Positions 4,882 to 8,615 of a stretch of 39,165 nucleotides of DNA are shown here, one piece after another. The translations under genes were made by a program, and so were the position numbers. The notes under the pieces were generated by a model that searched no databases, was not told the origin of the DNA, and worked only from the letters and a program-made list of their open reading frames with translations. The DNA lies in contig JAKVBT010000006.1 in the NCBI GenBank assembly GCA_022446905.1, positions 1-39,165 of the forward strand. Reading direction: 5' to 3'. Numbering within the stretch: the first letter of the stretch is position 1; every line of letters begins with the position of its first letter. The stretch is from Phycisphaerales bacterium. GTDB lineage: Bacteria; Planctomycetota; Phycisphaerae; Phycisphaerales; SM1A02.

Positions 4882-5307
4882 ATGGCCCGATGGTTCACAA
4901 TCATCCCAGTTCTACTGCTCGCATCGATGGCGAGGGCCGACATCGTTATTGCTATGCCGCCACCCCCAACGGGTCCTGCGGCGAAGAGCCTTGCGCTGGC
5001 CCATTTTGCCCATCAGACGGCCGCTTGTGATCGTTCTGGTCAGCCCAAGCCATCGCCTCAAGAGGCTGATTCCTACAACGCTTCCGCCATCCTTGCTGGT
5101 GATGGTTGGAATTGGAGAAACGACGGAGGCTGGTATGGCGGGGCACCCTACTGGTGGTGGGGCTGGTGGCCATGCATCTATTGGAATGCGGGATGCCTGC
5201 CAGTGAACTGTTCTGGCAATGGAGTGGGCTATCTGAATGCCTCGGGGGTTGCCGTCCAATATCGCAGTTCATCATTGTCGTTTGGATGGGGTGCGGCGAT
5301 CCGTTGA
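4882..5307 (+). CDS. Small secreted Trp/Gly-rich hypothetical protein
   Basis: A 141-residue protein of unrecognised family. It starts with a clear signal peptide: MAR, a hydrophobic core WFTIIPVLLLASM, then ARADI as a likely cleavage region. The middle is exceptionally rich in Trp, Gly and Tyr (around residues 75-100, including WWWGWWPCIYW) with two nearby Cys residues, and the C-terminus is Ser/Gly-rich. This suggests an exported, possibly surface-associated or carbohydrate-contacting peptide; that is inference only. ATG 4882 lies 7 nt after TAGGAT and has no ribosome site, so it may be leaderless. It converges on the FabZ-like gene (15-nt gap). Codon use looks like its neighbours. Confidence 0.65.
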   Translation: MARWFTIIPVLLLASMARADIVIAMPPPPTGPAAKSLALAHFAHQTAACDRSGQPKPSPQEADSYNASAILAGDGWNWRNDGGWYGGAPYWWWGWWPCIYWNAGCLPVNCSGNGVGYLNASGVAVQYRSSSLSFGWGAAIR

Positions 5308-5322: not shown

Positions 5323-5799
5323 CTAAATCCGCATCCCCGTGCACTCGACTTCAAAGACGACATTGCCGTCTACAAGGCCCTGTGCCCAGCATGAGAACCG
5401 ACGTCTTTGGAACTTCTGTTCCCGAGCAAGCAGAACGAGTTGCTGGCCTGGCACAACACTGCCGCGAAACACGCAGTTATTCACTCGGGTGAAGCCGAGA
5501 AAGCCAGCATTGCCATCTTGCATCTTCAGTTGGTACAGGACGCTGCTGATCTGGGCAGCGGCTTCAATCATGATTACGCCTGGCAGCAGTGGCCGCCCGG
5601 GAATGTGGCCAGGAACCCAGAACTCGTCCGCAGTGACATCCTTTACGCCAACGGCATTGGAATACACATCATCCACCCAAGGCACACGGTCAATCTGTCG
5701 CATGTCACCGGTCTGGGGCAACATGCGGTCAAGTTCATCGGGCTTGAGACAATGCGAGCTCAGGTCGATGTTTGAAATGTCGATGAGCGGATCTGTCAT
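5323..5799 (-). CDS. FabZ/FabA-like 3-hydroxyacyl-ACP dehydratase (hotdog fold)
   Basis: Hotdog-fold protein of 158 residues. The core GHIPGRPLLPGVIMIEAAAQ matches the FabZ active-site loop and central helix (HFPGxPxMPGVLxxEAxAQ), with the catalytic His kept. FabZ dehydrates 3-hydroxyacyl-ACP in fatty acid elongation. The N-terminus (about 35 residues before QIDRVPWVDD) and the rest are plausible for FabZ, but the F-to-I change after the His and the lack of other fab genes nearby leave open a specialised dehydratase or thioesterase-like member. A TATGCT hexamer lies 11 nt before the ATG, leaving a leader of only a few bases. Confidence 0.75.
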   Translation of the reverse strand: MTDPLIDISNIDLSSHCLKPDELDRMLPQTGDMRQIDRVPWVDDVYSNAVGVKDVTADEFWVPGHIPGRPLLPGVIMIEAAAQISSVLYQLKMQDGNAGFLGFTRVNNCVFRGSVVPGQQLVLLAREQKFQRRRFSCWAQGLVDGNVVFEVECTGMRI

Positions 5800-5860
5800 A
5801 AGGGAGTCTGAGCATAGTCGGGGCCAGCCACGCTCGGCAAGGCCATGGGCTTGATGGGCA

Positions 5861-5888
5861 GACGACCACCGCGCAAGCGGTGGTCGTC
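5861..5888 (-). terminator. Perfect 12-bp hairpin downstream of the Hc1-like gene
   Basis: GACGACCACCGC and GCGGTGGTCGTC form a perfect 12-bp stem closed by a four-base loop (GCAA on the plus strand). It lies 35 nt after the stop of the Hc1-like gene and before the FabZ-like start, where a terminator is expected. No T-run follows on either strand, so if it terminates it is not a classic U-tract type; RNA stabilisation is an alternative. Confidence 0.6.
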
Positions 5889-5923
5889 AGACAACACATA
5901 CATGTCCCCCCTTGGTGCCGCTG

Positions 5924-6100
5924 CTAATCGTCCCGCATGGTCAGCACTTCTTTGCGGACATCCTGGGCAGCATTCTTGATGTCCTGCATCGCTTTGCGGA
6001 CTCGGGTCCCGGCGGCCTTGTTGCCTCCGGCGCACTTGGCGACATCATCTGCGGCTGATTCAATGAGATTCTTGAGTTGTTCATAGGACTGCATTGACAT
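5924..6100 (-). CDS. Histone H1-like Hc1-family small DNA-binding protein
   Basis: A 58-residue protein matching the N-terminal domain of chlamydial Hc1/HctA. The hallmark is GNKAAGTRVRKAMQDIKNAA followed by QDVRKEV, against GNKAAAQRVRT...YRKES in HctA, after a helical LKNLIESAADDVAKCAG. It lacks the long Lys/Ala-rich tail of HctA, so only the helical domain is present. A role in nucleoid compaction or gene control is inferred from the family. Translation is assigned to ATG 6100 because GGAGG sits 5 nt upstream; the frame continues upstream to 6187 but that part is Pro/Arg-rich, overlaps a GC hairpin and is not convincing. The gene stands alone between hairpins at 5861-5888 and 6134-6164. Confidence 0.75.
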   Translation of the reverse strand: MSMQSYEQLKNLIESAADDVAKCAGGNKAAGTRVRKAMQDIKNAAQDVRKEVLTMRDD

Positions 6101-6133
6101 GGCGACCTCCACCTTGTCCTTGGGGCTATGCTG

Positions 6134-6164
6134 CCCCCGCGGTACGTCCCGCGGGGGTACCCCC
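6134..6164 (-). other. GC-rich hairpin and GGGGGTACCCCC palindrome in the Hc1 leader
   Basis: CCCCCGCGG (6134-6142) and CCGCGGGGG (6149-6157) are perfect 9-bp arms around a 6-nt loop. They overlap a second 12-bp palindrome at 6153-6164. The structure lies 34 nt upstream of the Hc1-like start. On the minus strand it also contains several runs of three to five G. It may be a 5' UTR control element for the Hc1-like gene, or a terminator for purB (stop at 6264). An AT-rich stretch at 6210-6260 precedes it and probably holds the promoter, though no clear hexamer pair was found. Confidence 0.5.
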
Positions 6165-6263
6165 AATACCCCGACCTTATCGGCCAAGAACGCTCATGCC
6201 CGCCGGTTTTCGCCCCTTAAAGGCTCTTTTTTCGCTCTATTTTCGGTATTTGGACGGGTATTT

Positions 6264-7697
6264 TTAGATCTGGAGGGCTGCGGGGCTGCCAATTTGGTCG
6301 TTCCAGCGGTCTGCAACCGCCTTCCCAACTGCCTCAACGAAGGTGTCGACCTGTTGGGGGCAGCGGCCAATGAACCGCTCTGGATCAAGTGCTGACTCGA
6401 GGTCGATGCCGGCAAAGAGGGGGTCATCAGCAAGTCGAGCAAGCAGGTCATTCTGCCCCCCAGACTTAACCACTTCGGCAGCTGCCATCGAATGGGTGCG
6501 GACGGCCTCATGGGCTTCCTGTCGGTCGGCACCTCGAGCGGCCGCAGCCATCATGAGATCTTCAGTCGCCATGAATGGAAGTTCGGCGCGTAGCCGTGCT
6601 TCGATGACGGCGGGTCGAACGATGAGGCCCTCAGCGACATTGCGAAGCACATCCAAGGCGCCGTCCAGTGCTAAAAATGCTTCAGGAAGCACCAGGCGGC
6701 GATTGGAGGAGTCATCAAGTGTGCGTTCCAGCCACTGCACTGATGCAGTTTGCAATGGGGCGGCAGCCAGCGTCATGACGTGCCGCGTCATGCCACAGAT
6801 GCGCTCACAACGCATCGGATTACGTTTGTAGGCCATCGCAGAGGAGCCGATTTGATTCTTTTCGAAGGGCTCCTCAAGTTCCCGGTGTCCAGCAAGCAAG
6901 CGAATGTCTGTGCAGCATTTATGCATGGCCGCAGCGATCACTCCGAGTGTGCCGACGATCTGGGCGTCAACGACGCGTGGATAGGTTTGTCCGGTGACGG
7001 GGAAGCGTTGCGTCGTGGCCCATCCCATTTTTTCTGTCACCATTCGATCAAGCGACTCGACGGCTGCGGCATCGTTGTTGAAGAGTGCCATGAAAGAGGC
7101 CTGTGAACCAGTAGCGCCACGCACGCCACGGAAGCGAAGGGTGTCGATGCGGTGTTCGAGATCTTCCAGGCCCAGCCAGAGATCCTGCGCCCAGGTGACC
7201 GCTCTGCGTCCGACCGTGACTGGTTGGGCAGGTTGGTAGTGCGTCGCGCCTAGGGTTGGCAGTGTCTTCCACTCCTGCGCGAACTTGCAGAGTGCCAAAA
7301 TAACTGCAGCGGATTTGGCCGCGATCAGTTGCATTGAGTCTCTGATGAGAATGAGTTCGGTGTTGCAGTTCACGAACTGACTGGTTGCGCCGAGGTGAAT
7401 AATGCCACGCGCCTCTGGGATGATGTCGCCCCACGCATGGACATGGGCCATCACGTCGTGGCGTAATGTGCGTTCATAGGACTTGGCGGCCTCGAAGTCG
7501 ATGTCATCCAAGTGCGAGCGCATCGCATCAAGTTGAGCATCGGTGATGTCCAATCCAAGGGCCTGCTCGGACTCGGCCAGTGCCAGCCACAGGCGACGCC
7601 AAATGCTGAAACGCTTCTGGTCCGACCAGATCGAGCGCATCTCAGTGGAGGCGTAGCGGGCCGACAGCGGCGATTGCCATGTGTCGAAGTCGAGCAT
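6264..7697 (-). CDS. purB: Adenylosuccinate lyase
   Basis: Fumarase/aspartase-superfamily lyase acting twice in purine synthesis: it splits SAICAR to AICAR and adenylosuccinate to AMP, releasing fumarate. The 477-residue protein carries the superfamily signature GSSAMAYKRNPMRCER (SSxMxxKxNxxxxE, with Met-Ala in place of Met-Pro) and the upstream LGATSQFVNCNTE and GATHYQPAQPVTVGRR blocks. Its length and IDLESALDPERFIGRCPQQV C-terminus fit the longer eukaryote-like PurB form. Start ATG 7697 (MLDFDTWQSPLSARY) is chosen because the similarity begins there and a minus-strand TATCAT lies 10 nt upstream; ATG 7709 is an alternative. It is divergent from the 7737 gene. Confidence 0.95.
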   Translation of the reverse strand: MLDFDTWQSPLSARYASTEMRSIWSDQKRFSIWRRLWLALAESEQALGLDITDAQLDAMRSHLDDIDFEAAKSYERTLRHDVMAHVHAWGDIIPEARGIIHLGATSQFVNCNTELILIRDSMQLIAAKSAAVILALCKFAQEWKTLPTLGATHYQPAQPVTVGRRAVTWAQDLWLGLEDLEHRIDTLRFRGVRGATGSQASFMALFNNDAAAVESLDRMVTEKMGWATTQRFPVTGQTYPRVVDAQIVGTLGVIAAAMHKCCTDIRLLAGHRELEEPFEKNQIGSSAMAYKRNPMRCERICGMTRHVMTLAAAPLQTASVQWLERTLDDSSNRRLVLPEAFLALDGALDVLRNVAEGLIVRPAVIEARLRAELPFMATEDLMMAAAARGADRQEAHEAVRTHSMAAAEVVKSGGQNDLLARLADDPLFAGIDLESALDPERFIGRCPQQVDTFVEAVGKAVADRWNDQIGSPAALQI

Positions 7698-7724
7698 CAA
7701 GTGTCCCATGATACCCGTGGGCTC

Positions 7725-7730
7725 TATCCT
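7725..7730 (+). promoter_or_regulatory. Candidate leaderless -10 element for the 7737 gene
   Basis: TATCCT, then six bases (CGCGTC), then ATG 7737. No ribosome site is present in the spacer. No convincing -35 was seen. Confidence 0.45.
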
Positions 7731-7736
7731 CGCGTC

Positions 7737-8615
7737 ATGACGGGACCGCATGTAGTACCTGTGCGCTTTCTGGAGGCCCTAGGGCATCTGGCAGTATGGG
7801 CTGGCTGCTATGCAGTGGGGTGTGTTCTCTTTGTCGCAGCGATTTGTGGTGAGCCCTTGCCCATGCGTGGGATGCTGGTGGCCTTTCTCGCGACCACAGG
7901 GACCTACCTACTGGACCGTGTCGGCATTGGCAGTGGATTGCCAGATCGAGCAGATGTTGCATCGCAACCACGCCGTGTGCATTTTTTGCGTCGGACGATT
8001 CCTGCAGTGCGTCCGATGGCATTGGGTCTGCTCGTAGCAGCGCTAGCCTTGATTGCTAGTGCCGGCTTGTTGGCGGCTTTGGTTGTGCCCGCGAGTCTGG
8101 TTGGCATGTTGTTGTATGGCCACACGCCCAGCCAACGTCGTCTTAAGGATGTGCTTCTCATCAAGAACCTCGCAGTCGCAGTGAGTTTGGCAGCCATGGC
8201 ACTGGTCTTGGGCACGCTTGATGCCAGTACGGTTTCAAAATCAGCCTTGGGAGTTGCAGGTGGGGCGTTGCTCTTGCACGTGATGGCTGCAGCCATGTTG
8301 TGTGACATAGATGATCAACATGCCGATGCCCGTTGTGGAACCAAGACAATTCCCAATCGATTTGGCCCAAAGGCGACTTGGTTCCTAGCAGATGTTTTTG
8401 CGATCATGGCTGGCGGACTGATTTGGTTTAGCGGGGACCTTGGCTGGACTCAAGGACGAGTTTGGCCGCTCGCCGTTGTGCCAACTGCAGCGGTGCTGCT
8501 CATGCACCTAGCAAAGCCGATGCGGGTGCGCCATTTGGTGGACATCAGTTTCCCTGTAGCCGTTGTTATCGCAGTGCTGCTCTCTGGCTCGCCTCCGGTC
8601 ACCAGCCTCACTTGA
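7737..8615 (+). CDS. UbiA-superfamily-like membrane protein with altered first Asp motif
   Basis: A 292-residue protein with about eight hydrophobic segments. The second UbiA motif is clear: LCD190-I-D192-D193-QHAD197-ARCGTKTIPNRFG. The same layout of an Asp cluster followed by K-T-I-P-x-RFG occurs in true prenyltransferases. The first NxxxDxxxD motif is replaced by YLLD60RVGIGSGLPD70RADV. The protein may thus be a divergent UbiA-type enzyme with an unusual substrate, or one that has lost activity. It is distinct from the canonical member at 2894. ATG 7737 is chosen over upstream in-frame starts because those lie inside the opposite-strand purB. Its 3' end overlaps the convergent plsY by 8 bases. 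Confidence 0.65.
   Translation: MTGPHVVPVRFLEALGHLAVWAGCYAVGCVLFVAAICGEPLPMRGMLVAFLATTGTYLLDRVGIGSGLPDRADVASQPRRVHFLRRTIPAVRPMALGLLVAALALIASAGLLAALVVPASLVGMLLYGHTPSQRRLKDVLLIKNLAVAVSLAAMALVLGTLDASTVSKSALGVAGGALLLHVMAAAMLCDIDDQHADARCGTKTIPNRFGPKATWFLADVFAIMAGGLIWFSGDLGWTQGRVWPLAVVPTAAVLLMHLAKPMRVRHLVDISFPVAVVIAVLLSGSPPVTSLT

Follow-up and report, generated by a model that had tools for sequence, protein, structure and literature searches.

What does an Hc1 domain do when it stands alone? The question is raised by a small gene of a Phycisphaerales bacterium, hc1, which lies on the minus strand at 5924..6100 of the window, that is, of the whole stretch of 39,165 nucleotides analysed here (contig JAKVBT010000006.1). 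Its open reading frame (6100..5924) encodes 58 amino acids with the core GGNKAAGTRVRK, and 5 nt before the ATG there is a GGAGG on the same strand (6106..6110, read as CCTCC on the plus strand), which we regard as a candidate Shine-Dalgarno sequence. The family is named from Chlamydia, where Hc1 binds DNA according to the available portions of two reports (PMC2848022, PMC13317200); the first of these assigns dimerisation to the conserved N-terminus and DNA binding to the Lys-rich C-terminus.

A tail-less Hc1 protein

The assignment to the Hc1 family, which had been proposed in a first-pass annotation of this DNA, is confirmed by the profile search. The 58-residue protein matches the Pfam Hc1 family (PF07432) with 80.1 bits and an E-value of 1.1e-22 against a gathering cut-off of 23.5, the match covers profile positions 1-55 of 57 so that no part of the profile is missing, and it is the sole Hc1 match in its own genome. 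The earlier description of a stand-alone protein without a Lys-rich tail also holds for the 58-residue frame, which stops two residues past R56 and has no Lys-rich C-terminal part. The net charge is +1 and the pI 7.9; among 81 relatives the net charge is mostly 0 to +3 and the median pI is 8.9. The product of hc1 is an ordinary member of the known Hc1 family.

It is not HctA itself, a candidate which was rejected: the NCBIfam model of HctA (NF051889) gives 26.4 bits against an equivalog cut-off of 100, and the Lys-rich C-terminal nucleic-acid-binding part that HctA possesses is missing. The likeness to the chlamydial protein consists of a weak match between window residues 6-52 and the N-terminal part of HctA. 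Since the window protein represents the N-terminal part alone, it cannot simply be called a compactor. The first-pass annotation had inferred an Hc1-like working from the common core, and this does not follow, because DNA binding in Chlamydia belongs to the very tail that is missing here, as far as the available portion of PMC2848022 describes it. In Chlamydia, moreover, knock-down of hctA together with hctB did not stop nucleoid condensation, according to the accessible part of PMC13317200.

An Hc1 match was obtained in 58 of the 61 genomes of the same family and in 162 of the 198 genomes of the class, with one per genome among the matches listed; 17 of the 20 Hc1-less genomes among the class misses listed belong to one family, f101, and 16 more misses lie beyond that list. 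In a sample of the whole phylum an Hc1 match was obtained in 38 of 294 genomes, distributed as 21/22 inside the class and 17/272 outside it, a split which assumes that none of the 236 unlisted misses is a member of the class; the order in which the rows are listed suggests as much. None of the 105 Hc1 proteins that were read out has a Lys-rich extension. Their lengths are 55-69 residues for 81 of them, with the exception of the protein of L032, which reads as 83 residues from a doubtful upstream start, and 57-72 residues for the other 24. The tail-less form is therefore the rule and not a loss peculiar to the window genome, and the bare Hc1 domain is the usual form in this bacterial class.

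Members of PF07432 were found in Planctomycetota, Bacteroidota and phages, which contradicts for the Pfam domain the distribution given in a 2006 paper, where Hc1 is confined to Chlamydiales in the portion available (PMC1403754). Proteins named histone H1 in Aureibacter, on Bernardetia plasmids and in Synechococcus phage S-SRM01 belong to the same Pfam family with 41-49% identity to the query used; their annotated coordinates give 61-64 residues, so they stand alone by length. Unlike the window gene, they have no neighbour annotated as FabZ in the surroundings displayed. Genome G318 (locus L109) has a second, weaker Hc1 match of 44.5 bits, which falls in a 529-residue open frame at a distance of some 1.7 kb from the other match.

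Structure prediction, a check which the first-pass annotation had suggested, yields a hairpin of two helices, at residues 4-24 and 28-57 (AlphaFold, mean pLDDT 94.9). The nucleosomal histone fold consists of three helices, and it is not found in this model, which has two only. An alignment of 78 of the 105 proteins shows G26, A30, R33, R35, K42 and R49 to be invariant. Positions 28, 35, 42, 49 and 56 of helix 2, which are exactly seven apart, are basic in all of the aligned proteins (78/78) and, by a recount covering the full set, in 105/105 bacterial Hc1 proteins. A 3-4 pattern of largely hydrophobic residues is formed by positions 34, 38, 41, 45, 48, 52 and 55 of helix 2 and positions 6, 9, 13, 16, 20 and 23 of helix 1. 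The basic stripe would be expected to lie exposed.

Comparisons of the fold were of little help. Sequence-based structure searches with the protein returned no match below E 0.05, and Foldseek searches with the model returned none at E <=0.001 in either PDB or BFVD. A viral protein of 75 residues with 46% identity comes first in BFVD (E 0.016), and the PDB E-values are all 0.8 or worse. Ribosome chains occur among the first Foldseek rows with E 1.2 or worse, the bacterial ones being about 57-69 residues long and presumably uL29. In VIA-align, unrelated helical hairpins scored as high as Z 8.4, and the comparison is uninformative. The model appears to be a common helical hairpin, for which the fold searches point to no function.

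Neighbouring genes in bacteria and viruses

The next gene downstream of hc1 (5323..5799, minus strand) encodes a FabZ-like 3-hydroxyacyl dehydratase, with a match of 73.9 bits to PF07977. The NCBIfam fabZ model (TIGR01750) gives 83.5 bits against an equivalog cut-off of 155.15, and we therefore write FabZ-like and not FabZ. H65 and E79, which we take to be the catalytic His and Glu of FabZ, are kept in 78/78 proteins including that of the window. Its genome has four FabA/FabZ matches, of which this gene is one; it is distinct from a match in a 462-residue frame, which by its size may be an LpxC-FabZ fusion.

The order is constant in the class. In a set of 80 loci a FabZ-like gene lies downstream of hc1 on the same strand in all 77 with enough DNA, the remaining three (L025, L028 and L031) ending within 273 nt of hc1, and the gap between the two reading frames ranges from 25 to 647 nt. 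The same order occurs in 14/14 loci of L084-L097, several of which are stretches already present in the set of 80, and in 7/7 loci of L098-L103 and L121. In family f101 the relation is one-sided: 12 of the 17 listed Hc1-less genomes were tested, and all 12 keep the FabZ-like gene (98-123 bits along almost its entire length, with a weaker second match of 53-65 bits in a frame of 438-592 residues), whereas the Hc1 profile finds no hc1 within 900 nt upstream of it. In the sole tested f101 genome that does have hc1 (G441), it lies upstream of the FabZ-like gene. G171 and G393, two Hc1-less genomes from outside f101, likewise retain the FabZ-like gene, and G374 (73% complete) has only weak FabZ-like matches. 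Linkage across the class, together with retention of the FabZ-like gene without hc1, indicates an old and tight pair that can come apart in one direction. A literature search, with most subscription journals outside its reach, found no paper that treats FabZ and a planctomycete histone-like protein together.

Of 17 hc1 loci outside the class, most of them with 3 kb per side, none gave a FabZ-like match near hc1, and no neighbour protein cluster is common to more than 6 of these 17. Two hc1 genes outside the class follow an EVE-domain gene (L104:3380-3859 and L106:2213-2707; two of the four cluster members were scanned). On the other side of hc1 in the window lies purB, encoding adenylosuccinate lyase (6264..7751, minus strand), which is directly upstream in 17 of 80 genome loci. 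Between the FabZ-like gene and manA there is, on the opposite strand (4882-5307, plus), a gene for a short Trp/Gly-rich protein with no Pfam or NCBIfam match; L005 and L006 have weak relatives (40 bits) in the corresponding position.

Phage-encoded PF07432 proteins have already been published as histone H1-like proteins of Moraphage in four genomes, with genome compaction as a suggested role, and the portion of that text available is silent on SSB or UvsX neighbours and on a basic stripe (PMC12619734). In IMG/VR, relatives of Hc1 are encoded by no fewer than 381 stretches from contigs of uncultivated viruses, and the best 80 (kept set L122-L201) comprise 59 distinct proteins and, by flanking sequence, 67 distinct loci, in which genes were called simply as the longest open reading frames. 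All of these best 80 are stand-alone and tail-less, with 50-66 residues counted from the start chosen for each. R33, R35, K42 and R49 are each present in 80/80 of them and position 56 is Lys or Arg in 80/80, with Lys at position 28 in only 66/80.

The viral neighbourhoods fall into several groups, one beside gp32-type SSB and UvsX and another beside ribonucleotide reductase. A gp32-type SSB gene directly adjoins hc1 in 15 of the 67 distinct loci, and within three genes there are UvsX in 17, ribonucleotide reductase in 7 and a 5'-3' exonuclease in 6. At least one of these four DNA-metabolism families is within three genes in 25/67 loci and none in 42/67; as raw counts, these make the setting supportive and not a proof. 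The largest group, of 18 loci, has a HAD hydrolase (18), a glycosyltransferase (17) and an aminotransferase (12) as neighbours, and in one phage group a neighbour of hc1 has weak RNA-ligase and cytidylyltransferase matches. No member of the FabA/FabZ family occurs among 28 different annotated phage neighbour proteins.

Inverted repeats and the leader of hc1

The three inverted repeats reported around hc1 in the first-pass annotation do exist. Downstream, 35 nt past the stop codon, there is a perfect 12-bp hairpin with a 4-nt loop (5861..5888, minus strand; stem 5861-5872/5877-5888), whose predicted RNA fold has a z-score of -3.0 and is equalled by 3 of 200 shuffles. In the leader there is a hairpin with a 9-bp stem, CCCCCGCGG/CCGCGGGGG, and a 6-nt loop (6134..6157, minus strand; arms 6134-6142/6149-6157, within an 11-of-12 repeat), with a leader fold of z -2.6 equalled by 1 of 200 shuffles. 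The third is a 12-bp palindrome, GGGGGTACCCCC (6153..6164), read by eye, which overlaps one arm of the leader hairpin; as both have the same GGGGG, the two leader elements are not independent.

That the hairpins are strong is thus true locally, both of them beating nearly all shuffles, but recurrence among the related loci is confined to the downstream hairpin. Over the first 160 nt of each hc1-fabZ gap, a hairpin unmatched by 30 shuffles was found in 17/18 loci of the order purB-hc1-fabZ against 6/60 of the others (78 gaps, grouped by purB upstream). Its stem letters differ among the relatives, which means that the place is kept and not the sequence. The element at 5861..5888 has the GC-rich stem-loop of an intrinsic terminator; no U-run follows the stem (tail TGCCCATCAA), and a terminator scan of 5700-6400 found none. 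From the sequence comparison it is probably the transcript end, and a lineage-specific one. The leader hairpin was rejected as a conserved element, since it stands out (at most 1/50 shuffles reaching it) in only 3 of 26 related leaders including that of the window. These 26 come from the 18 loci in which purB adjoins hc1 and from 8 of the 14 loci L084-L097 of the window's own family, where L084, L086, L089, L091 and L093 were left out as duplicate stretches by sight and L095 as close to L094.

It had further been suggested that hc1 is under tight post-transcriptional control, and the hairpins could indeed be imagined as forming a leader with a regulatory function, such as a CsrA target or an RsmY-like RNA, given their strong local folding, two CsrA genes in the genome and an RsmY match, the only Rfam match (E up to 1) in 5700-6400. 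That match (5863-5977, minus strand) runs over the end of hc1 and the downstream hairpin. With 27.6 bits it falls far below the gathering score of 57, the window leader holds 3 GGA motifs against 2.4 expected, the leader hairpin is rare among relatives and the downstream one keeps its place without its letters. CsrA/RsmY control was therefore rejected, and we consider such a regulatory leader highly improbable.

The leader comparison brought out another element. CCGATA, at 6178..6183 on the minus strand and 78-83 nt upstream of the ATG, is a candidate promoter or regulator site and occurs in 23/26 related leaders against 0.86 expected from shuffles, at 58-107 nt before the hc1 start (with a second copy at 124 in L054 and at 30 in L063); the whole window has 12 occurrences, and the element might be a promoter used more generally in this genome. 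By eye it is neither a clear sigma-70 nor a clear sigma-28 promoter, and it is possibly a regulator site. The sequence GCCGATAA upstream of hc1 resembles what we take to be the FliA -10 element; a sigma-28 promoter was rejected, as no TAAA was seen by eye at a matching distance in the aligned leaders.

Possible partners of the basic stripe

To the question of what the bare domain does, we answer, with a probability of about 0.5, that it is an alpha-hairpin mini-protein predicted to bind nucleic acid with its basic stripe. Its two helices, with coiled-coil-like hydrophobic seams, would probably let the hairpin dimerise or oligomerise, and the Lys/Arg residues at 28, 35, 42, 49 and 56 would form a four-heptad basic stripe gripping the backbone of DNA (or RNA). 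That five basic positions are kept at heptad spacing despite the low net charge suggests a partner that requires positive charges in a row; the likeliest is nucleic acid, with which the SSB/UvsX setting of one phage group agrees. The Phycisphaerae protein might then be a modest nucleoid protein beside HU, and chlamydial HctA would be the same domain with a Lys-rich tail added, turned into a strong compactor. Against nucleic-acid binding stand the charge of only +1 and pI of 7.9 of the window protein, the viral loci that have none of the four DNA-metabolism families, and the lack of a solved structure or significant fold match indicating function, as well as the constant neighbour in the class, a lipid enzyme and not a DNA gene. 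The chlamydial reports, in the parts available, weigh on the same side, with the missing tail as the DNA-binding part (PMC2848022) and nucleoid condensation surviving the hctA/hctB knock-down (PMC13317200).

This neighbour leads to a different account, in which the domain is an oligomerisation or adaptor module that binds another protein; in Phycisphaerae this would be the FabZ-like dehydratase or the acyl carrier protein of that enzyme. Acyl carrier protein is acidic and would fit the basic stripe. The unbroken gene order (77/77, 14/14 and 7/7 loci), the putative catalytic His and Glu kept in 78/78 and the separateness of this gene from the 462-residue frame favour such a partner, as does the dimerising N-terminus of the chlamydial protein in the available part of PMC2848022. 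Yet the FabZ-like gene persists without hc1 in 12/12 tested f101 genomes, the stripe is kept outside the class where the FabZ-like match is absent at 17/17 loci, and the annotated phage neighbours include no FabA/FabZ, so that we hold a protein partner to be unlikely. The same low odds apply to an RNA- or ribosome-binding helical hairpin of uL29-like shape acting on translation or RNA and not on DNA. The many ribosome chains in the first Foldseek rows and the RNA-ligase and cytidylyltransferase matches beside one phage group speak for it, but the PDB E-values are poor, many unrelated helical hairpins are ranked higher by VIA-align, and phage copies lie by SSB (15) and UvsX (17) in the 67 loci. 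Rather improbable, in our view, is a functional pair in which Hc1, as a nucleoid protein, and the FabZ-like enzyme of Phycisphaerae, as a dedicated fatty-acyl dehydratase, couple chromosome state to membrane lipid supply, either one controlling the other; in such a pair the mini-protein could later be lost and the dehydratase remain, as is seen in family f101.

The protein that gave the Hc1 domain its name is credited with binding DNA through a different part. With the tail-less form as the norm in the class, and as the form of the viral copies examined, it becomes testable whether the bare domain binds nucleic acid through its heptad-spaced basic residues. If it does, chlamydial HctA may have arisen from an older mini-protein by gaining a tail. 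Beside the basic stripe, the constant fabZ-like neighbour is a second, unexpected lead, and of all leads the steady place of hc1 next to this fatty-acid enzyme gene among relatives most deserves a test.
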